From Clostridiaceae bacterium (GTDB lineage Bacteria; Bacillota; Clostridia; DUPQ01), in assembly GCA_012838235.1 (NCBI GenBank), contig DUPQ01000069.1:1-64000 (forward strand): a DNA stretch of 64,000 nucleotides. The letters run 5' to 3'. Positions within the stretch are counted from its first letter, which is position 1; each line of letters starts with the position of its first letter. The position numbers and the translations under genes are program-made. Shown one piece after another: positions 3,226-57,362 of the stretch. The notes under the pieces were generated by a model. The model had not been told where the DNA came from. It searched no databases and saw nothing but the letters and a program-made list of their open reading frames with translations.

Positions 3226-3629
3226 TTACATAATGGGTGTAAAATCTTTATAACTGTCCGGCAATGTTTCCGAAAAATTATTAACCAATGCGCCTTTGCG
3301 ATTGTATAAATCTTCTTTCAGCCTTGTTCTCAGCAATCGCCTGCTCCAATATCCCGATGCACATTCACGGATATAGAAGAGTCGTTCATTTAACTCTTTT
3401 GTGTTACGTAGAATTTCCATATGATGCGAAAAACCAATCTCAATAAATGCTTCTCTATCGGAAAATCTTCGAAATTTACCAATCTTTTTTGTAAAACAGA
3501 CAACTCAGTATCATTCATCTGTTTCAAATCGGTAGCCATGGTTACCGATTTGTCTTCCGGAAGATATTCTGCTCTTGTTTGCAGATACGGCTGCCAAATA
3601 TTTTTATCCATTCTCTGCCACCTCGACAA
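3226..3629 (-). pseudogene. Decayed DUF1016 (YhcG-like nuclease) N-terminal fragment
   Basis: Two overlapping frames together read MATDLKQMNDTELSVLQKRL, then after a shift near 3425 MEILRNTKELNERLFYIREC, SGYWSRRLLRTRLKEDLY and NFSETLPD. The order and wording recall the N-terminal DUF1016 domain of YhcG-type PDDEXK proteins, in which an RxFYIE segment, an SGWSVRxL helix and an xTLP motif follow one another. The C-terminal nuclease domain is absent. The full-length protein at 51370-52428 belongs to the same superfamily. The assignment rests on motif resemblance only. Confidence 0.5.
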
Positions 3630-3840
3630 CTTTTTTATTATTTTTCCCGTAATTTTACAATATACATTGGTCCTGCAAATTTATAAAATTGTATGAATAG
3701 ATATTAAAACCATAAAGCTGTATTTCTGCTTACCTATCTATTTGAATTTTACTTTGCCGCATAGCGCAAGTCCATGCTAACATATCGCATATTTTGTCAT
3801 ATATTGAAAATAACCAATTGTCTTTATCGTTAAGACAGAT

Positions 3841-6636: not shown

Positions 6637-8109
6637 TTACAGTATTATTTTCCTTTTCTGTTCTTCTTTCATATGATACATAGCAAAATCCGCACGCTTT
6701 GCGGTATCATACGCCGACTGATCGGTTTTCTGATTAAATCTTGCAACCCCGTAAGCGACGGAGAACGTATAGGAAAGTTTTTTGTTCCATCCTTGTACCA
6801 GTTTCTCAAATACCTTACATTCTTTCTGAAGATTATCATCTGCTTTTGTCAGAACGGCAAACTCATCTCCTCCTATCCTGAAACACTCTCCTTTATTGGA
6901 AAAAGCTTCTTTTATGCATTCCGCACACTTTTTTAATGCACTGTCTCCGACCACATGTCCGAAGTTATCATTTATATACTTCAGATAGTTCAAATCAAAA
7001 AGTACCGCAGTCAGAGGTTGATTAGGTTCATGAGACTGCAGAAACTGTTCGTATTTATTCCTGTTACCCAGATTTGTCAGCATGTCCACACTTGCCAGCT
7101 GTTCATAATATTCCGCCTGTTTCAATTCCAACAGATTATCGTAATAACTCTTTATGGCGTTAATTATTATCACAACCAAAAATGCAACAACCGCAATACG
7201 TAACGCGAAGGATGTCTGTGTCATATTGGAGTAATAGTAAAGAATCATCTCAAGAAGACCGCCTGCAGATACCAGCGCCAGAGGTACAATGAACATGCGA
7301 AGATCCTTGTTTTTCTCAATACGCAACTCTACATGTACGACATATACCGCGACAATCATATTCAAAGCCATAAGCGAATGAGTAAGAAGCACCAGCTGGA
7401 ACATATCCACAAGACCGAATACCTGAAGCAGTAAGTTTAAAACCAATGTTGCGGCATAGGCATAAGCAAAGTATAACATATACTTTCTTTTTTCATTTTT
7501 GGAAACATCATATATGTATAAATTCAAAGGAACGGGAAACAGTACCAGACTTATGAGGTCGGCAAAATACATTATCTGCGGATATCCGAACATAAGCTGG
7601 CAGGAATCGCTTTGGAAAAACAACCAAATCGATACCAGGAATATGAAACTGCTTATATATAGAAAGGATTTTGACAGTGCATACTTCTTGTTCTTTGTAA
7701 CGAAATACAAAATCATTATAGTCAATCCGCCCAACAGCACAACGGTCAGACTGAACAACGAATACATGGATTTATTCTGGTAGTATGCTATACATTCACC
7801 TTTTGTACCGTACTGTATATCAGGCAGGAAACCGTGGTAATTGGAGTAAGGACTCTGGAAATCGAAAACAATCTCTTTATTGCTGCTCATAGCCGGAAGT
7901 TCCACCAGGTGATAGGAAGTTCCGGGAGATTTCAGAAAAGAAACGGCATTTTCTTCATATCCGAAAGAATAGACCATTTTTTCGTTAATATATATTTTAA
8001 AACGCAAATGACTGGTCTTGAACAACAGAGTCTGCGGCATGACGAAATCAATATTAAGTATTACTTTTGCTTTGTATTCACACGGATTGATTCCGTTCGA
8101 CACTCTCAT
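6637..8109 (-). CDS. Membrane-bound GGDEF diguanylate cyclase (main open frame)
   Basis: The 490-residue frame has an N-terminal extracellular-looking beta domain of about 110 residues, about seven hydrophobic helices (about 115-330, like 7TM sensor modules) and a C-terminal GGDEF domain (about 335-490). RIGGDEFAV is intact near residue 412, so synthesis of c-di-GMP is expected. No RxxD inhibitory site is obvious just before it. The true start is probably upstream: the frame continues to a GTG at 8238 with a good ribosome site and a signal-anchor helix, but is broken by one TAG. If the TAG is real and not read through, only a version without the first helix could be made, and the ATG at 8109 has no good ribosome site. 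Confidence 0.85.
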   Translation of the reverse strand: MRVSNGINPCEYKAKVILNIDFVMPQTLLFKTSHLRFKIYINEKMVYSFGYEENAVSFLKSPGTSYHLVELPAMSSNKEIVFDFQSPYSNYHGFLPDIQYGTKGECIAYYQNKSMYSLFSLTVVLLGGLTIMILYFVTKNKKYALSKSFLYISSFIFLVSIWLFFQSDSCQLMFGYPQIMYFADLISLVLFPVPLNLYIYDVSKNEKRKYMLYFAYAYAATLVLNLLLQVFGLVDMFQLVLLTHSLMALNMIVAVYVVHVELRIEKNKDLRMFIVPLALVSAGGLLEMILYYYSNMTQTSFALRIAVVAFLVVIIINAIKSYYDNLLELKQAEYYEQLASVDMLTNLGNRNKYEQFLQSHEPNQPLTAVLFDLNYLKYINDNFGHVVGDSALKKCAECIKEAFSNKGECFRIGGDEFAVLTKADDNLQKECKVFEKLVQGWNKKLSYTFSVAYGVARFNQKTDQSAYDTAKRADFAMYHMKEEQKRKIIL

Positions 8110-14380: not shown

Positions 14381-15750
14381 TTTTCCTTCCCCATCTCATT
14401 ATATTCTTTGGGCATGTAATTGGCCGCTATTATAGCTATTACACATGCTGCTATTACTATATAAGGCATTAAATGAGCTCCGAAAACGGGATTGTCGGGC
14501 AGTGTAATTTCTTTAACATTGAGCCACACAACAGATGTGGATAATGCTCCCACAAGAGCCGTACATAATCCCTGCATTGCAAAATACATGGACGGATGAC
14601 TCTTTCCTGTAGCCTTCAGTTCATCGGCTGCCGCTTGTGCGGGTATCGCATAAGGTGCGGAGAAAAATGCACCTAAACCGTAACTGCCTATTGCGCCTCC
14701 AGTTGCTCCTATCGCCAACCTTATATATTCATTGGGTATCCACTTGATATATGCTATTGAGAACATGAGCATGGCAACGGCAAACGAACCCATAGCCGTC
14801 TGGAATGCAAATCGGAAACCTTTCTTTTTCATTACCTTCCTGTAGAAATACAACATTAAAGGAACAGGGGCGAATGCTGCGGAATTTATAATGGCAATCT
14901 GCCAGCTGTTAAGCCCCATCGGTCCCGATGCCAGCACATTCTGTCCCGCCAAGAACATCTGAAGCCCGAAGAAAAAGATACCGAAAACCAATAACCACAT
15001 AAGAAAACCTTTATTCATAATTGTCAGTTTTATGCTCTCTAAGAAAGGCACTTCCTCTTCCACAGTTTCTCCCGCTTCCACGCGTTTTGCAACATCCTCG
15101 GGTAGCGTCGATTGTTCTTTGAGCAGGAAAAACGGTATTATCATGGTAAGAAGCAGGGGTGACAGTATAAGGGCAATATGCCTGATATTCAACCCGCCTA
15201 CCATTAAAGGTATAACGGCATAACCTATGGAATACTGAATGGTATCAAAAAACGCTTTCCAGGAAGAAAGATAATGACGGTCGCTGTCATTCTCGGTTAC
15301 TTCCGAATAAGTACCGTAATATGTTACCAGTGTCAAAGTATAGGAAGTAAAGAAAAAGATAAGCAGCACACCGAACCATATCGTATTTAACAAACTGTGT
15401 TCCGCTATTTCCAGCGGGAAACAGAATAATATGTATGTGATAATCATAGGTATGTACCCTATCAGTATAGCCGGACGCCTTTTACCCCATCTAGTCTTTA
15501 ACGTGTCGGTCAGTGATGCAAGCGGTACATCCGCTACACCGTCAACAATCTTGGCTATCAATACAAACACACTGAACAAAGCGGTCATAACAATGGTTTT
15601 ATTGGCATATGTCCAGTTTTCAATGTTCTTCAAAAAACCTGCAGTACTCAAGCCGTCTATAAGATAGGCGGTAATCATGAGGTTTATAAGCCCGGGTCCG
15701 AAACCGGACAGAGCATACAGAGGCAGGTAGTTTCTTTTGATTTTTTGCAT
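14377..15750 (-). CDS. GPH-type sugar:cation symporter (MFS)
   Basis: The 457-residue membrane protein has about 12 hydrophobic segments. It carries the glycoside-pentoside-hexuronide family motif region near the N-terminus (KIVDGVADVPLASLTDTLKTRWGKRRP). GPH members such as MelB, GusB and XynB import glycosides or uronides with H+ or Na+. The location between the amidohydrolase and ROK genes, facing a GH2 gene, makes it the likely importer of the GH2 substrate. AGGAGGACATT precedes the ATG. Confidence 0.9.
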   Translation of the reverse strand: MQKIKRNYLPLYALSGFGPGLINLMITAYLIDGLSTAGFLKNIENWTYANKTIVMTALFSVFVLIAKIVDGVADVPLASLTDTLKTRWGKRRPAILIGYIPMIITYILFCFPLEIAEHSLLNTIWFGVLLIFFFTSYTLTLVTYYGTYSEVTENDSDRHYLSSWKAFFDTIQYSIGYAVIPLMVGGLNIRHIALILSPLLLTMIIPFFLLKEQSTLPEDVAKRVEAGETVEEEVPFLESIKLTIMNKGFLMWLLVFGIFFFGLQMFLAGQNVLASGPMGLNSWQIAIINSAAFAPVPLMLYFYRKVMKKKGFRFAFQTAMGSFAVAMLMFSIAYIKWIPNEYIRLAIGATGGAIGSYGLGAFFSAPYAIPAQAAADELKATGKSHPSMYFAMQGLCTALVGALSTSVVWLNVKEITLPDNPVFGAHLMPYIVIAACVIAIIAANYMPKEYNEMGKEK

Positions 15751-43277: not shown

Positions 43278-44942
43278 TCAGAGCAAATTCGCAACAGTTA
43301 ACATATTAAACAGCATCTGTGCTATTTCGCTTCTTTGTATCTGTACTTTAGGCTCTACCTTAAGTGCGGAGTCGCTGAGTATATCTTTTTTGTAACAAAA
43401 AGCCATTGATTCCATTGCCCAATCCGCCACCGTTACATAGTCTTCAAACTGAGATAAAACATCCCTTATCTCGGCATTGCTCATCTTTGTATCCAGTCCG
43501 CATAATGCAGCTGCACGAGCAACCATTGTAGCGGCTTCCTGTCTTGTAATAGTGCCTTCGGGATTGAATTTTCCCTCTCCGACACCGTTTACTATCCCGT
43601 ACTTGTTGGCTGTTCCTATATAACCCGCATACCACTTATCCGAAGATACATCGCTGAACACTTTGGTATCCTCTTCAACAAGGCCTAACCCGCGGGTTAT
43701 TATGGTAGCAAACTCCGCTCTGGTCATATCGGCATCGGGTGCAAAGCTCTCCTTGCTTCTCCCGTTTATAATACCCCTCGAAGCAAGCGCCTCTATCGCC
43801 GCTATATTGGGACTGAATGTAATATCTTCAAATGTTGTACCGGGTGCGGTTATGGGCATAGGCAACACATCTTTATGCTTCCCCTCGAGACCTTCACCTT
43901 TTTTAACGGTAATATCAACAGAGCCTTCTACAGTTATAGCATCACTCATTCTGTAAAGGCTATTTTTACCCTCAATCGCTCTAAGAGCTGCAACCACTCC
44001 GTAAAATCCCTGTTCCGAAGCCATCTGATTGCTGCCGGAGCCGGAATATGTATGAAGAAAACTGCCGTCCTCTAACTGATAAGTCTTTAAATTATCCAAA
44101 AGAGTAACACCGTTTTTTGCAAAACGTGAATCGTCCAAAGGTATTCCGAGTTCACACAGTGCGACAAGCATTTGCACGCAGCTTTCGGAATTTGTTGTTC
44201 CCCAACTGTCAAAACTGCCGCTACCGCCCTGCTTACCGCTCATACATGCTAAAGCCTTTTTTGTCGCTTTAGCCACTTTAGGTTGGTCCTGATATTTTGC
44301 AAGAGCCTGAAGTGCCATTCCGGTAATGTCCGGATCGGGAATTTCGTCCTGAGCGGCAGCTATGGAACTTCCTCCGAACAAACTCCAGCCTCCGTCTTTT
44401 AGCTGACACTCTAAAATGCGGTCTATATACTTCTGTCTTGTCGCCTGAGTTTTGGCTTCTTTGTTTTCCGGAACTGGATAATCCCTTGTATCCAATGCAA
44501 TTAAAGCCCATATGGGTCCGTTAAGTCCCTGCCATACAGTTTTATCGTAATCACCTAAAGCATAAGTAAGGTCATAGCCTGCAACATCACGGGCATCTTT
44601 ACCGATTGAAGAAAGAGCTACAATAATACGGCTGTATTCCGTATATTTCTTTTCATGCAACACTCCCTTACAAGCCTTTACATAGTTTTCCACGGTAGCA
44701 TAATAGTTCTCGTAATATCCGTCCGGTACCTCATAACCGCTGCGTGCTAACCCTATTATCGCCCACTCTCCCCCGATAGACCCTACCTGCGGATTCTTTA
44801 CCGTATTTACCATATATTCAGCTGCTGCGGAAACCGACTTTTCCAACTCATCTTTTGAAAGAGCCGTTATGGGAGTTGCAAACCCCATAACAAGAGAAAG
44901 CACTATAAGCAATAAAACTGTTCTTCTCAATACTGTTTTCAC
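43278..44942 (-). CDS. Alpha/alpha-toroid (transcobalamin alpha-domain-like) SLH-anchored surface protein
   Basis: This 554-residue protein has a signal peptide (cleaved near 27), an alpha/alpha toroid (about 30-330) and three SLH repeats (about 370-554) that would bind the cell-wall polymer. The toroid shares its blocks with the larger neighbour: GSIGGEWAIIGLAR, DPDITGMALQALAKY and SEQGFYGVVAALRAIEG. The same fold occurs in squalene cyclases and in the alpha domain of intrinsic factor and transcobalamin. No catalytic DxDD motif of squalene cyclases is present. No DUF4430 domain is attached. It starts at GTG with AGGAGG and may be co-transcribed with the upstream 1881-residue gene. Confidence 0.85.
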   Translation of the reverse strand: MKTVLRRTVLLLIVLSLVMGFATPITALSKDELEKSVSAAAEYMVNTVKNPQVGSIGGEWAIIGLARSGYEVPDGYYENYYATVENYVKACKGVLHEKKYTEYSRIIVALSSIGKDARDVAGYDLTYALGDYDKTVWQGLNGPIWALIALDTRDYPVPENKEAKTQATRQKYIDRILECQLKDGGWSLFGGSSIAAAQDEIPDPDITGMALQALAKYQDQPKVAKATKKALACMSGKQGGSGSFDSWGTTNSESCVQMLVALCELGIPLDDSRFAKNGVTLLDNLKTYQLEDGSFLHTYSGSGSNQMASEQGFYGVVAALRAIEGKNSLYRMSDAITVEGSVDITVKKGEGLEGKHKDVLPMPITAPGTTFEDITFSPNIAAIEALASRGIINGRSKESFAPDADMTRAEFATIITRGLGLVEEDTKVFSDVSSDKWYAGYIGTANKYGIVNGVGEGKFNPEGTITRQEAATMVARAAALCGLDTKMSNAEIRDVLSQFEDYVTVADWAMESMAFCYKKDILSDSALKVEPKVQIQRSEIAQMLFNMLTVANLL

Positions 44943-45079: not shown

Positions 45080-48000
45080 CTACTTAACTATGTTTTTCAT
45101 AAAACGTGTAAGCATTACAGCAGCTTCGGCACGTGTTGTGTTGCCTGCGGGCACTATTCCGGTACGTGTACGTCCGTTTATGAGTTTTTCTCCGTTTGCC
45201 CACTTAAGCGCACCCAATGCCCATTCGCTTATCTCTTTTTTGTCACCGAATACGGTAAGGTCTCCGGTTTTGGATACATCATAATTCTTGTACTGTGCAT
45301 ACCTGTAAAGAATGGTTGCCATCTGCTCTCTTGTGATGCTGTCATTCGGAGCAAATATACCCTCTCCGTAACCGTTTACTATGCCGTTACTTGCAGCCCA
45401 GCATATTGCATCTGAATACCACATACCTTTTTTAACGTCGGTAAAGATGTTCTTACTATCTGCTTTAGGCTCTTTCTCCAAACGATAAAGCATTGTTACA
45501 AGCATTGCTCTACTTAATGTCTCTCTGGGTTCAAATGTGGTTTCACTTGTTCCTCTCATTATTCCCTTAGCATAGACATACTTAATCTCTTTTACAGCCC
45601 AGTGTTTATTCAGGTCGGTAAATGCCAGTACCACATCATCTAAGAGTACTACAAAAGTACTTAAGTGAGTTACACTGATACGTACATAGAGTCTACCGTC
45701 AATCTTTATACACTCACCTTTTATGGTTTCCGTGGAACCGTTCTTTGATATATGTACTACACTGTAGGTTTCACCTGCTTCAAACTCGTTACTTACAGGA
45801 ATGTCTATTGTAATGCTCTTTCCTCCGAAGCTTGATATCTCTTTACCGTCGGAAGATATACTTACCGAAACCACTATACCGCTTGATGTATCTATACTAT
45901 CATCCGTAACATCCGCTGCACTCTTTTTAGCAATACTTACCTCAATATCCGAGCCTTTAGCCTCGTTTGCTATGGAAGTTAAGGCATCGTTGGGAATGGT
46001 TATTATTCCGACAGGAGTATCTATCTCCAGACCTAAATTCTTCTCATCAGCTATGCTCTTTGCGGCAGTAGTCGGTATATTTACGGCTACATTCTTTGCC
46101 TTATCCGCTCCTGAGGGTGCAATACCTACACTTCCGGAAGAGCCGCTCTTTACTGCTTTTACTGCTGAGTTAATCTGCTCAGCGGTAACCGAAGCGGTAG
46201 CATCGGAACCGGTAACATCCGCTTTAGGTGTCAGAGTTGCTACACCTTGCTCAGCTGTATCGGTATCTTCCACTCCAGGCAGGTATCCGCCTACATCCTT
46301 GCCCAGGTCTCTTGTGTATACCCACTCAACTACATCATTTTCTTTCAATTCATACAATGATGAAGAATAACCGGGGAACACACCGTTAACCTTGTACATC
46401 CAACCGGACTGCGGACCGTCATCAAACTCACCGAATCCGCTTATAGCTTCAACATAAACGCCTGCATACTGTGAATGGTCCGATACCCGAAGTGTCAAAC
46501 CTGTGCGTCTGAGTATTGAATATGCCGTCTCACCGTCATTCATTTCCATTGCTGTGGGCGGAAAGTATACGCTCTGTTGGTTAGCTTTGGCATTGGGATC
46601 GGTTACACTGAGTCTGACATATTTAAGTTGAACGGCGGGTTCCGCTATTTTCAGTTTCGCTATTGCTGAAACCAATGAACTAACGGCATTATCCACAACC
46701 GCCTGAGTTACGGTTTCCAAGTCTCTTACAGCTTTTGCATCCCTTAGTTCAATTTGTAATGCACTCCAACTTCCCGCTGTATAATCGCTCTCACTGTATC
46801 TTTCCGCTTGTGCTATTTTCTCTTCCAATGCCGTTTTATCCGCAACCGCCGGAAGCACATCATCGGAAACCATCTTCACAACATCACTCATATCATAAAG
46901 GCGTGCTTTACCGTTTTTGAAGCGGTCATATGCTACCAATGCATATGCACCCTGCTCGCTTGACATTAAATTGGCTGCACTTTCACGTAAGAAAGCCTTG
47001 TTTGTAGCATCATAGTAGGAAAGAAGTATGCTGATATAGTTTTTACCGTTGAAATCGGCGGCATCTTCTCCCAATGCTGACAATGCTACTATTACCTGTG
47101 AACAACCTTCCGAATCGGTTATCTTCTGCCTGACAATCCATGCGAGAGCCTTGCCAACAGCTGCTGATACATCATCTTGCTCTTTGTATGGGGCAAGAGC
47201 CTGGATGGTCATTGCCGTAATGTCCAGATTGGGATTGGTATTGTCAAGCGACCAACCGTCGCCTACTTGGCAGCTTAAAATGTAGTCGACCAACTCCTGC
47301 CTGACCGGACTGTTCTTTGCGTACGGTAAAGAATCCATAGCTATCAATGCAAATACTGCACCGTTTATGCCCTGTCTTTTTACCCACTCGCTATCGGAAA
47401 GTAACGGAGCGATAAGGTTTTTACCGTTGACATTTACAGCACCGATTCCTAAAGAAGTCAAAGCCAGTATAAGTCGCGAGTTTTCCGTAGATTTGTTGTC
47501 ATTCAACTTGTCCGGTTTATCCGCTATACTTGTCAGTATGCGACTGTAATAACCGTCATAATACGGAGTATCTGAAAAACCGCCGCGCGCTAACGAAAGA
47601 ATAGCCCATTCACCGCCGATACTTCCCAATTCCGGGGTTTCCACATTACTTCTGATATAGTTAAGTACATCATTCAATGCACCCGCATAACCGTCTTTCA
47701 AAACAAGACGAGTCATTCTGTCGTTAAGATTTGCTAAAGCATTGTCAACTTTTCCCTGTGCGGCATTCCAATCGCCTTCAACTTGTTTTGCGGCACGTAA
47801 TGCGTTGAAAAACTCATCCCAACCCTCGATATAGTGGTCTTGGTTCTTTGTTTCCGCCAAAGTAATCGCTTCCCTAAGTGCGCCTTTATCGCCTCTAAGT
47901 ACAAGCATACTCTCTGACGGGAAAGTAATTGCATTCACTTCTTCAACAGTAGTTGCCGCATCAATCGATGCCATTGTTGTCTGGTAGCCTCTGCAATATG

Positions 48001-50725
48001 CCGTCCATGAACCCGGTGTATAAGGTAATTGATACAGATATCTATTTCTTTCCTCTATTTGTGCTTTCTTCTCCGCTTTCGCAGCCGCCAACTCCTCTTT
48101 AAGTGTCACCAGTCCGTCAGTTGACGGGATGCGAACCGCTTTTACTTCTTCCACCGATTCGGCACTGTTTACTTCTTCCTTTGCATTGTTAACAGCCGTT
48201 TGTAAGGCTGCCCACGATGCTTCAGTGTATTCGGCTTGCACTAAACCGTCAAAGACCGCTTCAAATCTTGCAATTCTCGCCGCTTTCTCAGAATCCAATA
48301 TTGTTACAAGATTCTCTGTCGAAGGGATAGATATTGCTTCTACCGCTGCTAAAGTTTTGGCATTTTGCACATCGGCTGTTGCCGTTGCCATCGCTGACTG
48401 CAATGCAGACCATGATGCTTTGGTATATATTGATTGGTTTAAACCGTCGGTAACGGCAGCTATTTGGGCAATCTTCGCCTCTTTAGCCGAAGCCAACTGT
48501 GAAGCAACCGCTACAAGACCGTCAGTTGACGGTATAGCTACTTCCTTTACCGCAGGAACATCGGTTGCGTTATTGACCGCTTGAATCGCATCGATTATCG
48601 CTGTCTGCAATGCTGCCCATGAATCGGCTGTATAGTCGGTTTCCGAAAAACCGTTGGTAACGCCGTTTATCTGAGCAATCTTTGCTCTCTTCACTTCTTC
48701 CAATTCCGAACCTGCCGCAACAAGACCGCTTATTGAAGGTATATTAACCGCTTCCACTGCGGCTGCATCCGTAGCATCGGTAACCGCTTGAATCGCATCG
48801 GTTATTGCGGTCTGTAATTCCGTCCATGAATCGGGTGTATAATCGGCCTCCGTCAAACCGTTGATAACGGCATTTATCTTTTCAATCCTGGCTGTTTTTA
48901 GGGTTGCAAGATGTGCCGCAACCGTTTCAAGACCGTCTGTTGAAGGTATTGCAACAGCATTAATGGCATCAACTGTTGTAGCTGCATGCACATTTGCAAT
49001 GGCACTTTGTATCAAAGCATAAAAACGTGTCCATGAATCTTTTGTGTAATCGGTCTCATCGACACCGGTATATACGGCATTAATTTGATCAATTCTTGCC
49101 TGTTTTGCCTCCTCAAGTTGCTGTGCAAGGCTTATAGTAACCGTTATATCAAAGTCTTTGGAAAAGTCTTCTTTTATTTTACCGTTTTCAATTGTTGCAG
49201 TAACCGTAACATTACCTTCCGACAAGGTATGTAAAATATTTTTCTCTATGAATGCACCTGTCGTACCCTGATTCTTAACAGTCCAGGTTATTTCTTTATG
49301 GGATGCATTATCCGGCTCTACCGTACCGACTAATGACAAAGGCGTCTCCGCAGCAACTTCGGCAGGGACATCAACAATATCCGTTACGGAAACGGATGTT
49401 TCTATGGTAATCAATGCATTCAGAGCACTTGACACCTCGTATTCTCCAACGGTAGTTTGTTTCAAAACAGTCATTGCGTCATCGTATGCAGTACCGTATA
49501 TCTCCGTTATGGCTTCAATAGAATTTGAATACTGCTTACGAATATTAGCAACCTTTCTTATAAGGTCACTCCTGTTCGCTCCGCCGCCTGTAGCACTGTA
49601 ATGCCCTACGTATATAAGACGCATAACGTCATTGTCTTCTAACGTATAACCGTCCATACCGGTTGAGGGGAATCTTTCATTAACGCAATACATCCAGCCG
49701 CTGAAAGAACCCGCATCTTTTTCGCTTAGGTATCCCTCTTTCTGCACCGTTCCCGAGCCCTTATACACAAAGTCCGGATCCCAAACACCTGCAAGATAAC
49801 CGCCGTTGTACCGATATGCTTCTTCACCCTTTTCGGGATAACGTGCTTTCAGAGCCTGCATCATAAGATCTGCCGCATTAAGACCTTTAGGCAGTTTCAT
49901 TTCTGTCGGTTCCACAATAAAATTGCCGTCAATAAACAATTTTTCCACCGTGATATATGTGATAATATACTCAACTGTAGGTCCGGTTGCTTCACCGCCG
50001 GCAATAATGGTATTTATTGCTTCTATTCCGGTATTTTTCACTTCTTCAATTTCTTTTATACTCGGAGCCATATTTATGGCTGTAACGGTTTCGTTATACG
50101 TCGAGTCAACATTTGAAGCAATATCGGCTGTTTCTCCGCTTGCGTTTTTGTAAGCATCGGTTTCTTTAGCAGCTTCCCAAACTTCGGTTAATGCATTTAT
50201 TGATGTTTCTCTTTTCTCATTTACAGCTGTAGCTGACGACCACTCTATTATGATAAAGCCTGCAATATGTGCTACGGCAGGACCAAGCCCAGGCATAGGT
50301 TGCATTCCATACCAATAATACCCGATAGTGTTTTCTTCCATGCAATCATTGACTATATCTTCCGGCAGAAAACCTTTTGTGTTCTCATAACACTCTTTAC
50401 CTATATTGGTCTCGGAAACTATACCCAACCGAACAAGCTGTATCATTTTGTATTGACCGGAAGGTGTACGAAGTACGGGCATCCTGTTGCCGAGCATATC
50501 CCGTCCCTTTAACTGTACAGAGCCATATTTGGAACCGTCAAGGGACAGCTTATATATATCCATTGTTTGACCGCTCTGAGTAAATGAACCTATTTTCGTT
50601 GCCGTTGTATCCTTAAGCTCATATATTGCTGTTGCGGAAAATACACCTAACGGGCATATTTGCAGGAGTATAAGCAGGGATAAAATAACAGCTAAAAACT
50701 TATTTACTTTTATACTTCTTTGCAT
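45080..50725 (-). CDS. Giant SLH-anchored protein: DUF4430, Ig-like, FIVAR-type repeats, alpha/alpha toroid, DUF4430, SLH
   Basis: The 1881-residue surface protein has (numbering from 11 residues upstream) a signal peptide (about 15-42), a DUF4430 domain (about 270-390, GWMYCVNERFP), an Ig-like domain (about 450-545) and six degenerate 65-70-residue FIVAR-type repeats (about 545-960; ARIEKINAV, YTPDSWTELQTAI, IPSTDGL). A toroid (about 1050-1335; GSIGGEWAILSLAR, LDITAMTIQALAPY) is followed by another FIVAR, a second DUF4430 (about 1395-1500; GWMYKVNGVFPGYSS, VVEWVYTRDLGKDVGG) and three SLH repeats (1700 on). ATAAGGAGA supports the ATG at 50725. A cobalamin riboswitch and terminator lie upstream. 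It is best read as an intrinsic-factor-like B12-capture protein. Confidence 0.9.
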   Translation of the reverse strand: MQRSIKVNKFLAVILSLLILLQICPLGVFSATAIYELKDTTATKIGSFTQSGQTMDIYKLSLDGSKYGSVQLKGRDMLGNRMPVLRTPSGQYKMIQLVRLGIVSETNIGKECYENTKGFLPEDIVNDCMEENTIGYYWYGMQPMPGLGPAVAHIAGFIIIEWSSATAVNEKRETSINALTEVWEAAKETDAYKNASGETADIASNVDSTYNETVTAINMAPSIKEIEEVKNTGIEAINTIIAGGEATGPTVEYIITYITVEKLFIDGNFIVEPTEMKLPKGLNAADLMMQALKARYPEKGEEAYRYNGGYLAGVWDPDFVYKGSGTVQKEGYLSEKDAGSFSGWMYCVNERFPSTGMDGYTLEDNDVMRLIYVGHYSATGGGANRSDLIRKVANIRKQYSNSIEAITEIYGTAYDDAMTVLKQTTVGEYEVSSALNALITIETSVSVTDIVDVPAEVAAETPLSLVGTVEPDNASHKEITWTVKNQGTTGAFIEKNILHTLSEGNVTVTATIENGKIKEDFSKDFDITVTISLAQQLEEAKQARIDQINAVYTGVDETDYTKDSWTRFYALIQSAIANVHAATTVDAINAVAIPSTDGLETVAAHLATLKTARIEKINAVINGLTEADYTPDSWTELQTAITDAIQAVTDATDAAAVEAVNIPSISGLVAAGSELEEVKRAKIAQINGVTNGFSETDYTADSWAALQTAIIDAIQAVNNATDVPAVKEVAIPSTDGLVAVASQLASAKEAKIAQIAAVTDGLNQSIYTKASWSALQSAMATATADVQNAKTLAAVEAISIPSTENLVTILDSEKAARIARFEAVFDGLVQAEYTEASWAALQTAVNNAKEEVNSAESVEEVKAVRIPSTDGLVTLKEELAAAKAEKKAQIEERNRYLYQLPYTPGSWTAYCRGYQTTMASIDAATTVEEVNAITFPSESMLVLRGDKGALREAITLAETKNQDHYIEGWDEFFNALRAAKQVEGDWNAAQGKVDNALANLNDRMTRLVLKDGYAGALNDVLNYIRSNVETPELGSIGGEWAILSLARGGFSDTPYYDGYYSRILTSIADKPDKLNDNKSTENSRLILALTSLGIGAVNVNGKNLIAPLLSDSEWVKRQGINGAVFALIAMDSLPYAKNSPVRQELVDYILSCQVGDGWSLDNTNPNLDITAMTIQALAPYKEQDDVSAAVGKALAWIVRQKITDSEGCSQVIVALSALGEDAADFNGKNYISILLSYYDATNKAFLRESAANLMSSEQGAYALVAYDRFKNGKARLYDMSDVVKMVSDDVLPAVADKTALEEKIAQAERYSESDYTAGSWSALQIELRDAKAVRDLETVTQAVVDNAVSSLVSAIAKLKIAEPAVQLKYVRLSVTDPNAKANQQSVYFPPTAMEMNDGETAYSILRRTGLTLRVSDHSQYAGVYVEAISGFGEFDDGPQSGWMYKVNGVFPGYSSSLYELKENDVVEWVYTRDLGKDVGGYLPGVEDTDTAEQGVATLTPKADVTGSDATASVTAEQINSAVKAVKSGSSGSVGIAPSGADKAKNVAVNIPTTAAKSIADEKNLGLEIDTPVGIITIPNDALTSIANEAKGSDIEVSIAKKSAADVTDDSIDTSSGIVVSVSISSDGKEISSFGGKSITIDIPVSNEFEAGETYSVVHISKNGSTETIKGECIKIDGRLYVRISVTHLSTFVVLLDDVVLAFTDLNKHWAVKEIKYVYAKGIMRGTSETTFEPRETLSRAMLVTMLYRLEKEPKADSKNIFTDVKKGMWYSDAICWAASNGIVNGYGEGIFAPNDSITREQMATILYRYAQYKNYDVSKTGDLTVFGDKKEISEWALGALKWANGEKLINGRTRTGIVPAGNTTRAEAAVMLTRFMKNIVK

Positions 50726-50978
50726 TGTTAATCTCCTTATACAAATTAGTTTCTTCATATTAATACTCTCAAGTGACTAAATATCATCACCTGAACCTGT
50801 CATCTTTTGTGGAAAATCATTTGTAACTGTCAATATTTCATTTTCCGTGCATCAACCCCTTTCTTCATCGAATTTAGAGACCGCTTTGCAGCGGGGTTCT
50901 TTAAAAGAACTCGCTCCGCTGTTTTTACGATTGGTCTTTTTTCCGTCTTCGACAAAGGATGTGCTTAGGAATCAGATG

Positions 50979-51015
50979 AAAAAACCGCACGACAGTAAAT
51001 ATTTACCATCGTGCG
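50979..51015 (-). terminator. Riboswitch expression-platform terminator
   Basis: CCGCACGA and TCGTGCGG form an 8-bp stem, extended by AT pairs around TAAATATTTA, and are followed by TTTTTT on the minus strand. It lies between the B12 box and the start of the giant SLH gene, as expected of a transcription-attenuating switch. Confidence 0.88.
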
Positions 51016-51072
51016 GCTGTATCTTCGCACATCAAAACACCATGCCCCTGTCATTTATCGTGTGACGGCATG

Positions 51073-51276
51073 AATTCCGAGCAGGTCTCCTGACTTCGGT
51101 CCTTTTTATGCTCTCCCTTGCCTTATCAAATCATAACGATTCAATGACCGGTTTTCACCGCGGGAGTGCGGACCTTCACAGTGGCAGCGTCCGTGCCGGA
51201 TTCCGACCGGCTTCCCTTTTAACATGTATGCGTTCTTATTCCAAAGAACAGACCACCGCATACAGCACTCGAAATT
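51073..51276 (-). ncRNA. Cobalamin riboswitch controlling the giant SLH protein gene
   Basis: On the minus strand the aptamer contains AAAAGGGAAGCCGG, CGGAATCCGGCACGGACGC, GCCACTGTG, and the B12 box GTCAGGAGACCTGCTCGG. Outer P1 arms AATTTCGAG (51268-51276) and CTCGGAATT (51073-51081) pair with one wobble. It is followed by the terminator at 50979-51015 and then by the 1881-residue gene, so B12 should switch that gene off. Confidence 0.95.
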
Positions 51277-51369: not shown

Positions 51370-52428
51370 CTATAAAAATACCTCTTTTCCGATTGCCATA
51401 ACGCCTTGCTCAATTTCTTTAATACTCGGCAAACTGCTCCTGTAATCTTTCGGAAGAAGTTGAGATAAATGATATTCTGAAATTCCGATAGGTTGACTGC
51501 TGGATTCCAAAGCATATTCAGCCACGACATTATCCTTTGTTTTACAGATTAACAATCCCAATGTTTCATTATCTGCTTCCTTTTTCCTCTGATGATTCAT
51601 TGCAGCAACATAAACACCTAATTGCCCGATATAGCCGGGTTCAAATTCCGTCGCCTTGAGTTCCACAACAACATAGCATCTAAGCTCCAAGTGATAAAAC
51701 AATAGATCAATAAACATCTCTTTTGAGCCAACCATAATCGGCACCTGTCGCCCCACAAAAGCAAAGCCTTGCCCCAGCTCTAATAAAAACTGAGTAATAT
51801 TCGTTGTCAATGCATCCTCTAATTCTTTTTCCCTATATCCTTCCGTCAAGGTAAGGAAATCAAAATTATATGGATCTTTTAATGTTTCTTTTGCTAAATC
51901 ACTTTGAGAATCAGGCAGGAGAGTTGTAAAATTTGTGATTGCCTTTCCTTGTGTTGTGTAAAGAGTCGTATCTAAATAATTGAGAAGTACTGCTCTGCTC
52001 CAACCGTTTTTAATTGTTTTCTCAATGTAAAACAACGCTTCTTCCGGACTTTTACATTTTGTCATTAACAGAATATGATGTCCCCAAGGAATTGAGAATA
52101 TATATTCCAATTGGTCAACAGCCTGTTGACTTTTTTGGTAAAACAAATAAAAGCGCTTCATATACTTAAGGTTAGTTTCGGAAAACCCTTGCAGTTTAGG
52201 AAATTCCTTGCACAAATCTTTTGACAGTGACTTGATAAATGCATCGCCCCAAGCACACTGTTCCTGTCTTAATGCAATTTCCTTTCCGAAATTCCAATAC
52301 AAGTCCAAAAGTTCATAGTTCACTTTTACAGCAGCTTTTAGTTGACTGCTTCTCACTCTTTCTTTAAGTTCACCCAAGAGTTTTTGATACATATTGTCGT
52401 CAACAATACGCAAATTATTGTGTGCCAA
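51370..52428 (-). CDS. yhcG: YhcG-like protein with DUF1016 and PDDEXK nuclease domain
   Basis: The 352-residue protein has an N-terminal DUF1016 helical domain (YWNFGKEIALRQ, about 45-170) and a C-terminal PDDEXK-type nuclease (about 215-340; FIDLLFYHLELRCYVVVELK, with the D and ExK). TTLLPDSQSDLAKETLKDPY joins them. Family members are attributed to restriction-like or defence functions. Translation begins at TTG with GGGAGGTG upstream. It is inserted between the cobalamin transporter operon and the riboswitch of the SLH gene. A decayed relative lies at 3226-3629. Confidence 0.9.
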   Translation of the reverse strand: MAHNNLRIVDDNMYQKLLGELKERVRSSQLKAAVKVNYELLDLYWNFGKEIALRQEQCAWGDAFIKSLSKDLCKEFPKLQGFSETNLKYMKRFYLFYQKSQQAVDQLEYIFSIPWGHHILLMTKCKSPEEALFYIEKTIKNGWSRAVLLNYLDTTLYTTQGKAITNFTTLLPDSQSDLAKETLKDPYNFDFLTLTEGYREKELEDALTTNITQFLLELGQGFAFVGRQVPIMVGSKEMFIDLLFYHLELRCYVVVELKATEFEPGYIGQLGVYVAAMNHQRKKEADNETLGLLICKTKDNVVAEYALESSSQPIGISEYHLSQLLPKDYRSSLPSIKEIEQGVMAIGKEVFL

Positions 52429-52562: not shown

Positions 52563-55313
52563 TCACCTTTCTATAAGTCCGTACTTCAGTTTTACCCTGT
52601 CCAATTTCTCCAGCATGGGTTTTGCAATGGAAAACAGGAAGACAACGGTGGCAACCGCATGGATAAGGTCAAAAGGAATACCCCGGATATATGCAACATA
52701 GAACATTTCCATTGTGGGTTTTGCCTCATACATCAATACCGATGCGGGATTCATTATACCTCCGTATATTAAGAATGTAGCCAGTCCGCCGAAGATACAA
52801 AGTGCAATAGTATTGCGCCGTAATATTCCTTTTCTGAATAATATCCCGGCCAAAAACCCTATTATACCGAAAGCAAACATCTGCCAAGGTGTCCACGGAC
52901 CCTGACCGAAAAACATATTGGACACAAAGGCGGTAACCGCTCCTACTAAAAATCCCGTCTCCCCTCCGAATGCAACTCCCGCTATAATTACAATAGCCGC
53001 TACCGGCTTGAATTGCGGTAACATGAAAAAAGCCGTACGCCCCGCCACTCCTATGGCACAAAGCACCGCAATTATAATCAACTCTCTTGCCTGAGGTTTG
53101 CGCCCTTCAAATATAAGGACAAAAGGCAGCATGGTTTCCAATATTATCAGCATACTGATAAAATAATATTTTCTGTCCTCTAAATAATAGACGCCTAAGT
53201 AGATAGTTAATGGGATAGCTATAAGTATCATTGCAGCGGCAAGAAGTGTACGCTTGGAAAGCTTTCTTTTATCCGCCGCTACCTGTTCGTTATCTATCTT
53301 TGTATGTTTAGGCCGAAGAAGAATAAAGAACAGGAGTAATTCCGCTGCCAATGCAACGGCTAACAGAACATAGTGCCATATATTCATTTCTTTACCGAAA
53401 GAAACTACCGATAAATCACCCTGTTTAATAATAGCTGACAAATCCCCCATGTTGCTTACGGCAAAATATGCCGTTACAAGAAAGGCTAAAGCAGTAAGTA
53501 CTGCACCTGCTATACGCCAGGCGGGCAACTTATTATTCTTTTTTTCACTTTTTAATACACTTTTGTCATATTCCTCTGCTGTATCTTCTTTTGTATCTAT
53601 GGGCATAATGTTTCTATCTTCCGGTATCTTTATTTCAAAAGGTTCCGCTTTTCCCCCGCACGCATAAATTATATCTTCCGCAGTTATTGCGGTCGGAAGC
53701 ATATGTCTTGCCATTCTGTTGGCTGCGGTGGTATAGAAACTGTTGTCGGAAAAGAAACTTCGCGGGGTATTCCAGCTTACTATATTACCGTCAAAGAACA
53801 GAGCACATTTATGAGCATATTTTGCACAAAACTCAATATCGTGGCTTACCATGAGTACGGTAACGCCTTTATACAAAAGCTCATAAAGAATATTAGCGAA
53901 TATCCGTTTAAATTCCGCGTCCATGCCTTTAGTAGGCTCATCTAAAAGCAATATCTTAGGCTCTAAAAGAAGAACCTTGGCTAAAGCCGCCCGCTGTTGT
54001 TCTCCGCCTGACAAATCATAAGGGTGCATGGATAACAGCTCTTCCAATCTGCACAGTTTCGCGATCTTTGCTATTTGTTGCTCTTTTTCCGCTTTGGACT
54101 TCTTTTGTCCGGACAGCATTTCCAAAAGATCCTCCTGCACGGTCTTTTTAACAAAAAGTGCTTGAGGATTTTGCGGTAATACACCCAACATACGGTTAAA
54201 CAGTTCTTTATCCCCTATCTTGGACCGTTCTTTCCCGTTTATTCTAACCGTTCCTCTGTAAGGCTTGTTTATGCCGGATATGAGCGACAGTGCCGTGGTT
54301 TTTCCCGTACCGTTTCCGCCCAATATGGCATAGAACTCTCCTTGATATATTTTCATGGAAAGACCTTTAAGCACATCCGGAGCATCCTTTTCATATTTGA
54401 ACCATACTTCATCAAACTCAATAACGGGAATACCCTCTTGCTCCTTTATTGAATCCTCAGCAGGGATATCTCTTAACTGTTTGTTCTTTGTAAAGGTATC
54501 CAACCATGTACGTCCCTCTCTTACGGTAACGGGACAAGCAAGACTATTTTCCACACCCGCATAGACACGCATGGGAACAGGCATTGCTAAAAACATGCCG
54601 TGATGTAAGTCTTTCAACTGTTCACCCACTTCATTAGGTGTACCGTCACAGATTATCCGCCCTTCATCCATAACCAATACCCTGTCGGATATAGCGAAAA
54701 CCTCCTCCAACCTATGCTCGGTTATTATAACGGTGACACCTAATTCTCTGTTTATCTTTTCCACAGCGGAGATAAATTCCGTTGCCGCTATGGGGTCTAA
54801 CTGACTTGTGGGTTCGTCCAGTATAAGTACCGACGGTTGCATCGCCATGATAGCTGCAAGGTTCAGCAGTTGCTTTTGTCCTCCGGATAGTTCGGTAACA
54901 TTTTTATAAAACCAGGTCTCTATACCGAAAAATGAAGCCATTTCAGCTACTTTCAAACGGATAGCGGGTGTATTAAAGCCTAAACTTTCCAACCCGAAAG
55001 CCAATTCATGCCATACCTTGTCGGTAACAATCTGATTATCGGGAGATTGCATTACAAAACCTATCTTTGAACTTTGGGTACGTATATCAACTTCAGATAA
55101 CGGTTTCCCTTCAAATATGATATCTCCGCTTAAACTTCCATGCGGTGCAAGCACAGTTTTTAGTTGTCTGAGAAGTGTGGTTTTACCGCACCCCGAAGGT
55201 CCGCAAAGAGTTACGAACTGTCCCCGCTCTATGGAAAAAGAGAGATTATTTAATACTTTTTTCTCTTTCTCCGGATAGGAAAAAGTTAAATTTTTGATTG
55301 TATAGCTTTCCAT
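52563..55313 (-). CDS. Fused ECF transporter: two ATPases plus cobalamin-type S component
   Basis: The 916-residue protein joins two ABC ATPases to a membrane S component. ABC1 (about 1-240) has GPSGCGKTTL, LSGGQKQLLNLA and ILDEPTSQLD. ABC2 (about 285-510) has GGNGTGKTTAL, LSGGEQQRAALA and LLDEPTKGMD. After a charged linker come hydrophobic segments and a C-terminal S component (about 710-916) with RTAFFMLPQFKPVAAIVIIAGVAFG and FFGQGPWTPWQMFAFGIIGFLAG, as in predicted cobalamin S proteins. The ATPases would power vitamin import. It overlaps ecfT by 28 bp. The whole operon is under a cobalamin riboswitch, supporting B12 as substrate. Confidence 0.9.
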   Translation of the reverse strand: MESYTIKNLTFSYPEKEKKVLNNLSFSIERGQFVTLCGPSGCGKTTLLRQLKTVLAPHGSLSGDIIFEGKPLSEVDIRTQSSKIGFVMQSPDNQIVTDKVWHELAFGLESLGFNTPAIRLKVAEMASFFGIETWFYKNVTELSGGQKQLLNLAAIMAMQPSVLILDEPTSQLDPIAATEFISAVEKINRELGVTVIITEHRLEEVFAISDRVLVMDEGRIICDGTPNEVGEQLKDLHHGMFLAMPVPMRVYAGVENSLACPVTVREGRTWLDTFTKNKQLRDIPAEDSIKEQEGIPVIEFDEVWFKYEKDAPDVLKGLSMKIYQGEFYAILGGNGTGKTTALSLISGINKPYRGTVRINGKERSKIGDKELFNRMLGVLPQNPQALFVKKTVQEDLLEMLSGQKKSKAEKEQQIAKIAKLCRLEELLSMHPYDLSGGEQQRAALAKVLLLEPKILLLDEPTKGMDAEFKRIFANILYELLYKGVTVLMVSHDIEFCAKYAHKCALFFDGNIVSWNTPRSFFSDNSFYTTAANRMARHMLPTAITAEDIIYACGGKAEPFEIKIPEDRNIMPIDTKEDTAEEYDKSVLKSEKKNNKLPAWRIAGAVLTALAFLVTAYFAVSNMGDLSAIIKQGDLSVVSFGKEMNIWHYVLLAVALAAELLLFFILLRPKHTKIDNEQVAADKRKLSKRTLLAAAMILIAIPLTIYLGVYYLEDRKYYFISMLIILETMLPFVLIFEGRKPQARELIIIAVLCAIGVAGRTAFFMLPQFKPVAAIVIIAGVAFGGETGFLVGAVTAFVSNMFFGQGPWTPWQMFAFGIIGFLAGILFRKGILRRNTIALCIFGGLATFLIYGGIMNPASVLMYEAKPTMEMFYVAYIRGIPFDLIHAVATVVFLFSIAKPMLEKLDRVKLKYGLIER

Positions 55314-56179
55314 TTTCTATCCTCATTTACATTAATAACAACCGGCATTATACACAAGGCAAAGTAGCAGATATAAAGGGATATGGGATAAAGTTCAAAC
55401 CCCACACCTTTCATAGTGGGAAAATATCTCCAATATATACCGCCTAAAAAAGCCCCTAATATGATATATATTCCGCAAAGAGACAAAAAGAGCATAGCTT
55501 TTTTATCCCGCTTATCAAAACGATATATGGAAAAGGCTGTGCGTCCCGGCAAACCGTAACCGCGGCTTTTCATGGAATCCGCCGTTTCAATGGCGTTTTC
55601 CAACGCCCATGTAACCATAATGGACAGTATTCGTATACCGTGCTTTGCCCGCTGTAAAATACTTCCGTTGGAGACATCCCGCCCTATACACTTTTGCGCA
55701 TCGGAAACCACCTTAATCTGTGCCTTAAAATGTGGAACAAAACGTAAAGCCATGGATAATATCAGCGACAGAGCAGGAATAATGCGTCCGAAAAGGTACA
55801 CAAACTTATCGGAAGTCATAACCGCGTTATAGCAGGAAAACCAGGATATGACGGTAATAAGCATAACCGCTGCGGCTATTCCGTATGTTATGGATTCCAG
55901 CGTTAAAGGATTGCCGTCTCTAAGATAGGTAAGAATGGTGCCGCCTTCATGGTTAAAAGCGGGGTTTATAAGGGCGGTAATGATAAGTAGCGGTAACATA
56001 TATTTAAGATTGAAGAATAAAGCTTTTTTACCGTTCAAATAAATTGAATAACATAAAGCCGACAGTAAAGATGTTGCAAGACAAACAGGGTGCATAAAAA
56101 ACATGGAAAACACCAGTATTAAAGTGAAATACAGAAAGTTTACGGCAGGGTGGTATGTGGAAAACGTGTCTTTCATCAT
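55286..56179 (-). CDS. ecfT: ECF transporter T component (EcfT/CbiQ-like)
   Basis: The 297-residue membrane protein has at least five hydrophobic segments and the EcfT coupling motifs (ADSMKSRGYGLPGR, with the Ala-Arg-Gly type motif facing the ATPase). It links the two ATPase domains to the S component. Its ATG overlaps the upstream DUF4430 gene and its end overlaps the fused ATPase gene, so the three proteins are made together. Length is slightly above the usual 260-270. Confidence 0.92.
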   Translation of the reverse strand: MMKDTFSTYHPAVNFLYFTLILVFSMFFMHPVCLATSLLSALCYSIYLNGKKALFFNLKYMLPLLIITALINPAFNHEGGTILTYLRDGNPLTLESITYGIAAAVMLITVISWFSCYNAVMTSDKFVYLFGRIIPALSLILSMALRFVPHFKAQIKVVSDAQKCIGRDVSNGSILQRAKHGIRILSIMVTWALENAIETADSMKSRGYGLPGRTAFSIYRFDKRDKKAMLFLSLCGIYIILGAFLGGIYWRYFPTMKGVGFELYPISLYICYFALCIMPVVINVNEDRKWKAIQSKI

Positions 56180-56910
56180 TCTTCCCCCATAGCGTAATAT
56201 CCACCCACATCGCGTCCTAAATTACAGGTATATACCCATTCAACCACATCACCGGCTTTTAACTGATAACGGGAAGCGCCGTAATTGGGAAACCAACCGT
56301 TCACCTTATACATCCAGCCGGAAAGCTCACCTACATCAAACTCGTAAAGATTGTTGATACCTTCAATATATACACTGTTGTACATGGGAGTATTCACAAA
56401 CTCCATATGAATTCCTGCTTTCTTCATTTCTCTTCGAAGAATATTAAAAACCGATTCACCCTCATAGAAAGTTACTTCGGTAGCCGGGAAAATAACTCCG
56501 TCTTTCGGCACAAGCTCCACCTTTTCTTTGTCTAAATATTTCATATTATTCAATATGGTATCGCAACGGACAGAAAGAATGCAGGTATGTGCAGTGTCGG
56601 TTATAACGGCATCTTGGGGTTCTACGGGTATGGGTTTTCCTTCAGGAACAGGGTCGGTAAGATATCTGTCCTTGCCTGTTTCCTTATCAAATACCATACC
56701 CAACTGTTCGGAATAGGATTTGGAACCTTCAAAAACACCCTCCGAAGAACCCTCTCTTTGACAAGGTGTAGGAGAAGGACTTGCCGAGTTATATGATATA
56801 TCCGATACAGCATAATTGCCGCCCCAAATATATGTTACAACGAGGACACACAGTATAACTACTGCTGCAATTATTTTTCCCTTATGCTTTTTTATGCCCT
56901 TTACCTGCAA
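56176..56910 (-). CDS. Membrane-anchored DUF4430 (transcobalamin C-terminal-like) protein
   Basis: The 244-residue protein has one N-terminal transmembrane helix (about 13-33), a Ser/Pro-rich linker and a DUF4430 domain (about 105-240). It reads VIFPATEVTFYEGESVFNIL, ELSGWMYKVNGWFPNYGASR and VVEWVYTCNLGRDVGGYY. DUF4430 corresponds to the C-terminal beta domain of transcobalamin and intrinsic factor. As first gene of the riboswitch-controlled ECF operon it is a likely B12-docking partner that hands the vitamin to the transporter. TTG at 56908-56910 follows GGGAGG. No lipobox Cys is present. Confidence 0.88.
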   Translation of the reverse strand: MQVKGIKKHKGKIIAAVVILCVLVVTYIWGGNYAVSDISYNSASPSPTPCQREGSSEGVFEGSKSYSEQLGMVFDKETGKDRYLTDPVPEGKPIPVEPQDAVITDTAHTCILSVRCDTILNNMKYLDKEKVELVPKDGVIFPATEVTFYEGESVFNILRREMKKAGIHMEFVNTPMYNSVYIEGINNLYEFDVGELSGWMYKVNGWFPNYGASRYQLKAGDVVEWVYTCNLGRDVGGYYAMGEE

Positions 56911-56950: not shown

Positions 56951-56988
56951 TAAAAAACGGTCACAACCGCAAAAAACTGTTGCAACCG
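56951..56988 (-). terminator. Expression-platform terminator of the ECF-operon riboswitch
   Basis: CGGTTGCAAC pairs with GTTGTGACCG (two G-T pairs) over a T-rich loop and runs into TTTTTT on the minus strand. It lies between the aptamer and the first gene. Confidence 0.8.
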
Positions 56989-57029
56989 TATTCATGCTAA
57001 ACGCACTTACTCCAAAAAGGAGCACAGCA

Positions 57030-57215
57030 TCTTCTTGTAGGTCTTCTGACTAACGCTTCGCAAGACTAATAGTCTGCTAACCAAACTCTGCCTTCCCGGT
57101 TTCCCAGTGACCGACTTTCGTCAACGAGCATTGATTATGGGCGCTTACAGCGGCGGTACCGTTCGGGCTTTGCACCCGATTCCCTTGTTCAGTCTCACAT
57201 TGTGAGACCACAAAA
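57030..57215 (-). ncRNA. Cobalamin riboswitch of the DUF4430-ecfT-ecfAAS operon
   Basis: The minus strand reads GAACAAGGGAATCGGGTGCA, then GCCGCTGTAAGCG, GTCACTGGGAAACCGGGAAG and the B12-box-like GTTAGTCAGAAGACCTACAA. The order and conserved pieces are those of the cobalamin (class I/II-like) fold, with some deviations from consensus in the core (for example GCCGCTGT instead of GCCACTGT). Boundaries are approximate. Confidence 0.9.
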
Positions 57216-57362
57216 AGAGATATTTAATTTTTAAAGAGCTTACATAAACTCTTTTCAATGTCTTCTAAAAGACATTACCGACTTTAATTAAATCATAATT
57301 AAGGAAGTATAACAACATCTTTGTACGCATCTTTGTTTGTTTGACACACCGGTTTTTTTCTG
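57216..57362. other. AT-rich region between riboswitch and tRNA promoter
   Basis: It contains the inverted repeat GTCTCACATTGTGAGAC near 57200-57216 at the 5' edge of the riboswitch, and no further recognisable gene. The transcription start for the riboswitch operon must lie here, but no clear minus-strand -35/-10 pair is evident. Confidence 0.4.

Follow-up and report, generated by a model that had tools for sequence, protein, structure and literature searches.

We describe a locus in which two units, each led by its own cobalamin riboswitch and terminator, very probably form one B12-repressed system for B12 acquisition, made up of binders anchored in the cell wall, a relay in the membrane and an importer of the ECF type. 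The locus lies in the window, which is the whole stretch of DNA that was analysed (64,000 nucleotides), and its features are collected in Table 1. Both riboswitches, their terminators, the domain content of the proteins, the fold match, the relationship to CbrT and the conserved linkage between riboswitch and genes were all computed directly. An earlier note on this DNA had singled out positions 45080-51276; the content that it gave for this range was right, but a second riboswitch and the transporter, encoded at 57230-52563, lie outside it.

Table 1 Coordinates of the riboswitches, terminators, genes and domains of the locus, listed in the direction of transcription.
Feature	Position	Strand	Evidence
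Cobalamin riboswitch aptamer 1 (RF00174), leader of the transporter unit	57019..57230	-	83.4 bits against a gathering score of 31.5
Terminator-like hairpin with T-run after aptamer 1	56953..56994	-	-16.4 kcal/mol
244-aa membrane-anchored DUF4430 protein	56176..56910	-	67.4 bits; TTG start behind GGGAGGA
EcfT (CbiQ family), transmembrane energising subunit	55286..56179	-	Matches EcfT chains including entry 6FNP, E 1e-11
EcfA-EcfA'-S fusion, 916 aa	52563..55313	-	Pfam; S domain (52563-53246) related to CbrT
Cobalamin riboswitch aptamer 2 (RF00174), leader of the surface-protein gene	51073..51276	-	64.1 bits (Rfam); 73.6 bits (own covariance model)
Intrinsic terminator, expression platform of aptamer 2	50983..51018	-	16-pair stem and T-run; -23.9 kcal/mol
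1881-aa surface protein gene	45080..50725	-	ORF from ATG 50725 behind AGGAG; Pfam, own HMM
First DUF4430 (transcobalamin beta-type), part matched by Pfam	49610..49735	-	30.3 bits
Alpha/alpha toroid domain	46880..47626	-	Own HMM, E 1.7e-72 (residues 1034-1282); fold
Second DUF4430, C-terminal to the toroid as in transcobalamin	46313..46534	-	56.5 bits; fold
Three SLH repeats (wall anchor)	45083..45628	-	116.5 bits; match to S-layer protein Sap
554-aa toroid and SLH protein, downstream of the 1881-aa gene	43278..44942	-	Toroid HMM, E 5.8e-106

Domain organisation of the surface proteins

The 1881-aa protein, which would be 1892 aa long if translated from an alternative upstream ATG at 50758, was found to contain, in this order, a signal peptide, a DUF4430 domain, an Ig-like region, about seven FIVAR-like repeats, a toroid, a FIVAR domain, a second DUF4430 domain and three SLH repeats. 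The N-terminal leader is hydrophobic, as judged by eye. Pfam recognised the two DUF4430 domains (PF14478, 75.9 bits, two stretches), FIVAR and the three SLH repeats; the toroid lies below every Pfam toroid model and was recovered by its fold and with an HMM built from the paralogues of the locus itself together with relatives. The two transcobalamin-like beta domains, the toroid and the S-layer anchor read in this protein by the earlier note were in this way all found. The toroid and the second DUF4430 domain are separated by a FIVAR-containing linker of about 116 residues. Ahead of the toroid, the roughly seven FIVAR-like repeats (47846-49108) are degenerate, measure about 70 residues each, fall below the Pfam threshold and probably form a stalk; the separate FIVAR domain at 46652-46840 passes that threshold. 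The 554-aa gene is probably carried on the same transcript as the 1881-aa gene. When related loci were searched with the whole 1881-aa protein, two relatives of its toroid/DUF4430 part and two SLH-only matches were obtained.

Structural relationship to B12 carriers

The toroid-FIVAR-DUF4430 part of the window protein was modelled with AlphaFold2 together with 23 relatives (pLDDT 78, pTM 0.61). Among 350,542 PDB chains searched with Foldseek, the top 14 matches of this model were intrinsic factor, transcobalamin and haptocorrin, followed by squalene-hopene cyclase, and the same carrier families ranked first for the model of a relative with a short linker (pLDDT 90, pTM 0.70). The two-domain models (pTM 0.61-0.70) depart from the domain arrangement of transcobalamin, with a full-length rmsd of 9-20 Å, and the relative position of their domains is unreliable, so that a clamp of both domains over one cobalamin is hypothetical. 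By Foldseek, the DUF4430 part matched 5no0, the human transcobalamin beta domain; a sequence-only PDB search with the beta domain returned nothing significant. The DUF4430 part of both models also matched 3u7z, a solved Ruminococcus gnavus "putative metal binding protein", which may be a B12 binder of this family.

The 1881-aa protein has a beta-grasp (DUF4430/SLBB) domain and, N-terminal to it, an alpha/alpha toroid, the pair that characterises B12 carriers. It gave no match to PF01122 (Cobalamin_bind), which was matched at E<=0.01 by 3 of 24 relatives, the toroid of one of them (L074) scoring above the cut-off (51.4 versus 25 bits). The protein is, by score, not a member of PF01122 but a distant homologue, a putative binder that would work like transcobalamin or intrinsic factor. 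The vertebrate carriers intrinsic factor, transcobalamin and haptocorrin likewise have a toroid followed by a beta-grasp domain. Each of them is a soluble protein of just two domains joined by a short linker, whereas the window protein, about 12% identical to them, has the long FIVAR linker, is anchored to the cell wall and carries additional copies of both domains. An enzyme of the squalene-cyclase type was also considered for the toroid, and sequence profiles from Pfam and the PDB do favour squalene-hopene cyclase; it was rejected because Foldseek puts B12 carriers first and the toroid adjoins DUF4430 in B12-riboswitch operons.

The surface proteins might instead bind another ligand, such as a polysaccharide or a different corrinoid-like metabolite, or have a role in adhesion, the riboswitch only coupling their expression to the B12 status of the cell. 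Adhesins commonly carry FIVAR and Ig-like modules, toroids are also contained in terpene cyclases and complement proteins, some DUF4430 units are without a riboswitch, and other ligands have been suggested for archaeal members (Burroughs et al., PMC1796856). We consider this unlikely, as toroid and DUF4430 together match B12 carriers before any other PDB fold, and their genes share operons with a CbrT-like S component, with cobalamin riboswitches in most cases.

The riboswitch of the surface-protein gene and its linkage to DUF4430 across the class

The cobalamin riboswitch and full intrinsic terminator that the earlier note had placed before the 1881-residue gene were both confirmed. Aptamer 2 belongs to RF00174 by its score (64.1 bits versus a gathering score of 31.5; E 1.5e-13), by its conserved core and by its expression platform. 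In the alignment the invariant core is retained as AAAAGGGAA and AGTCAGGAGACCTGC (AGGGAA and CAG.AGACCT), and divergence is seen in the GCCACTG/GGGAAGG region and in the J6/3-P6 region. The fold of the leader is more stable than that of 100 out of 100 shuffled sequences (z -3.5). The 5' arm of the terminator can alternatively pair with the 5' strands of P1 and P2 (-14 kcal/mol), a pairing that could possibly act as an antiterminator. Core motifs, a full RF00174 score and a terminator platform are shared with class-I riboswitches such as those of B. subtilis btuF and of C. difficile operons; the target here, unlike the btuFCD, cbi or metE genes, is a cell-wall protein.

We looked at this linkage in 80 loci, drawn from one bacterial class and from the genome of the window itself, using a covariance model made from 21 riboswitches and domains detected by iterated HMMs. 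Weak riboswitch cases were confirmed with Rfam, one of them being of the AdoCbl-II class. Among 196 genomes of the class, DUF4430 occurs in 88 and RF00174 in 158. A cobalamin riboswitch was present on the same strand within 3 kb upstream, at a median distance of 160 nt, in 53 of 88 DUF4430 units, which are a sample of 110 clusters and not a random draw. With riboswitches at about 0.7 per Mb, chance alone would give about 0.1 units, although the units are not independent and a P value itself is not meaningful. A curiosity of a single genome is ruled out by these 53 units. The riboswitch was not detected in the other 35, of which 7 have less than 400 nt of upstream sequence. It was present in 34 of the 60 loci that lay, for the riboswitch, outside the list of the 150 best matches, so that the effect is not an artefact of how the loci were selected. 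With a strict scan, 45 of 57 leaders were found to contain a strong terminator, compared with 8 of 203 segments chosen at random; laxer criteria matched 28 of 60 controls and were hence discarded.

Arrangement of the locus

The usual order in related loci is riboswitch, large surface protein, toroid-SLH protein, DUF4430 lipoprotein, EcfT, EcfA-EcfA' and S, and in several relatives (L074, L083, L124, L131 and L140) the genes for the surface protein, toroid-SLH, DUF4430, EcfT, EcfA and S make up one riboswitch-led operon. In the window the two halves are split and reversed in order, riboswitch 1 lying 5.7 kb upstream of riboswitch 2, and each half has kept a riboswitch and terminator of its own. 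The presence of B12 control on both split halves is an argument for the importance of this control and against mere coincidental proximity. The transporter genes have their nearest relative in a Clostridiales MAG (L155), where toroid-SLH, DUF4430, EcfT and EcfAA' stand in one row and EcfT is 68% identical to that of the window.

Some other arrangements were observed. A DUF1016/YhcG PDDEXK nuclease-like gene (51370-52428) lies between the two riboswitch units of the window. Locus L135 has two cobalamin riboswitches (1975-2098 and 3605-3729) before surface proteins and a weak third one (15561-15699; 34.6 bits, as L085) directly before EcfT, and in L072 a DUF4430 operon is headed by an AdoCbl-II (RF01689) riboswitch at 6743-6815 instead of RF00174. 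Three records without annotation that are labelled "Bacteriophage sp." and come from human faeces, MT837027 among them, also encode toroid/DUF4430 matches; they may be contigs of bacteria wrongly filed as phage.

The riboswitch could be real and still not control the 1881-aa gene, if a promoter in the spacer drove transcription and the switch were merely left over from the rearrangement by which the operon was split. The spacer between terminator 2 and the gene, of about 250 nt (50980-50726), holds a TTGACA-like hexamer, the 323-356 nt from aptamer 2 to the gene start are unusually long compared with the median of 160 nt, and the locus is rearranged with respect to its relatives. A scan of the minus strand for sigma-70-like promoters detected no promoter-like pair in the spacer; this is weak evidence, which cannot decide, because none was recognised upstream of aptamer 2 either. 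A relic seems improbable to us, as aptamer and terminator are intact on both split halves and the order riboswitch, terminator, gene is also found in relatives, at short range. The idea that the spacer is a repeated or mobile element with its own promoter was rejected, since it has no second copy in 11 family genomes and no promoter-like pair.

A second riboswitch and an ECF transporter unit

The unit led by riboswitch 1 codes for the 244-aa DUF4430 protein, a candidate relay or substrate binder, and for EcfT, two EcfA ATPases and an S component homologous to CbrT, as in ECF transporters of B12. Searched against PDB sequences, the S domain gave a single significant match, 6fnp_A (E 2.1e-9), which a profile of 13 S domains matched at E 7.8e-23, the next chain being at 0.019. 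The entry 6FNP is ECF-CbrT, the group II B12 transporter of Lactobacillus delbrueckii, and CbrT is a vitamin B12 S-component that has been characterised both biochemically and structurally (PMC5997447). The S component and EcfT of that transporter are homologous to those of the window. In ECF-CbrT, CbrT is a separate protein that shares its ECF module, whereas here both ATPases and the S domain form one chain of 916 aa, and the unit has a dedicated EcfT and a DUF4430 partner.

That the transporter imports cobalt or a B12 precursor and not complete B12, as could be thought from an EcfT of the CbiQ family, from an EcfA matching CbiO models and from the control of CbiMNQO cobalt importers by cobalamin riboswitches as well, is quite improbable, since CbrT is the only S component that the S domain matches at such a level and since CbiD was not found in the bin (about 86% complete), so that imported cobalt could not be converted to corrin by the anaerobic pathway. 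Uptake of cobinamide by the ECF unit is possible.

Origin of the contig

The bin to which the window contig (C41) is assigned is a MAG. The FtsH encoded on this contig (35900-37951) is 45% identical to that of sibling genomes, compared with 90% for the other FtsH of the bin, and the window EcfT is 27% identical to the EcfT of sibling genomes; the composition of the contig is compatible with the bin. Judging from these sequence identities, the contig may be mis-binned or may bear a laterally acquired region, a caveat that touches only statements on the locus's own genome and leaves the locus itself unaffected. All three RF00174 matches and all six DUF4430 matches of the bin sit in the window loci and in a locus of contig C34 (L010 8711-12613). 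There the third riboswitch heads a split version of the gene row, with genes for DUF4430x2-SLH, toroid-SLH and a DUF4430 lipoprotein but lacking the ECF genes found next in a sibling genome (L131). The bin also contains two proteins with a B12-binding domain, which, together with the absence of CbiD from its recovered part, is consistent with a B12-dependent auxotroph.

Discussion

The two riboswitch-led units would work together as follows. At a high intracellular level of (adenosyl)cobalamin, both aptamers would be occupied, the terminator hairpins would form and transcription would end ahead of the genes; under B12 scarcity no terminator would form and both units would be made. The SLH-anchored 1881-aa and 554-aa proteins would capture corrinoids at the cell wall, using toroid and beta domain in the manner of transcobalamin and intrinsic factor. 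From there the ligand would reach the CbrT-like S domain by way of the membrane-anchored 244-aa DUF4430 protein and would be imported by the EcfT/EcfA/EcfA' motor. In this scheme the binding of the ligand, the OFF direction of the switches, the relay and co-transcription are what we infer. Across the class, it is probable that Gram-positive capture of B12 is governed by riboswitches, with wall-anchored, multi-copy counterparts of intrinsic factor and transcobalamin, a membrane DUF4430 relay and a CbrT-type ECF importer, the cobalamin riboswitch being the genomic signature of the system.

The earlier note had seen the gene as an exception among cobalamin riboswitches, which mostly control transport or biosynthesis; this view does not hold, since the locus is itself a predicted transport system and the arrangement is widespread. 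Its proposal that the riboswitch points to cobalamin as the ligand is strongly supported, as far as sequences and models can indicate, by the class-wide association, the match to the carrier fold and the adjacent CbrT-like S domain, and cobalamin is the predicted ligand. The riboswitch is not the sole or clearly the strongest clue that it was held to be, because the homology to CbrT and the domain pair are independent of it and a B12 role was predicted in 2007 without it (PMC1796856).

In that work, Burroughs et al. defined the SLBB superfamily, described toroid and FIVAR fusions, a surface location in low-GC Gram-positives, CbiO/CbiQ operons and no B12 synthesis, and predicted that the toroid/SLBB surface proteins scavenge B12; they also proposed that animals obtained transcobalamin from low-GC Gram-positives, and the word riboswitch is absent from the paper (PMC1796856). 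The locus resembles their proteins in having DUF4430/SLBB fused to or adjoining a toroid, FIVAR fusions, a surface location with hydrophobic leader and SLH, and an adjacent EcfA/EcfT unit of the CbiO/CbiQ operon type, which here is under its own riboswitch. It differs from them in its two separate riboswitch-led units and its three SLH repeats, and CbrT was characterised only later. New in comparison with the prediction of 2007 would be the links to the riboswitch and to CbrT. We found no paper linking cobalamin riboswitches to DUF4430/SLH proteins in a search that covered published journal papers, few of them from subscription sources, in their main text, a scope that does not establish priority for the riboswitch link. 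In Bacteroidetes, BtuG and BtuH capture B12 at the surface ahead of a membrane transporter and under riboswitch control, which we take as an analogy only; to our knowledge they are outer-membrane lipoproteins and not of the toroid/DUF4430 architecture.

No B12-binding test of any bacterial toroid/DUF4430 protein was apparent in the literature searched. The locus is a well-supported case of a B12-capture type that has been predicted and experimentally neglected, its B12 binding being putative. The uptake of B12 across the thick Gram-positive wall is poorly described, and in dozens of genomes the riboswitch supplies independent evidence that ties large surface proteins labelled as "unknown" to B12. 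The linkage also gives a testable origin for the vertebrate B12 carriers, and it suggests that intrinsic-factor-like binders are displayed by gut Clostridia and could compete for B12.
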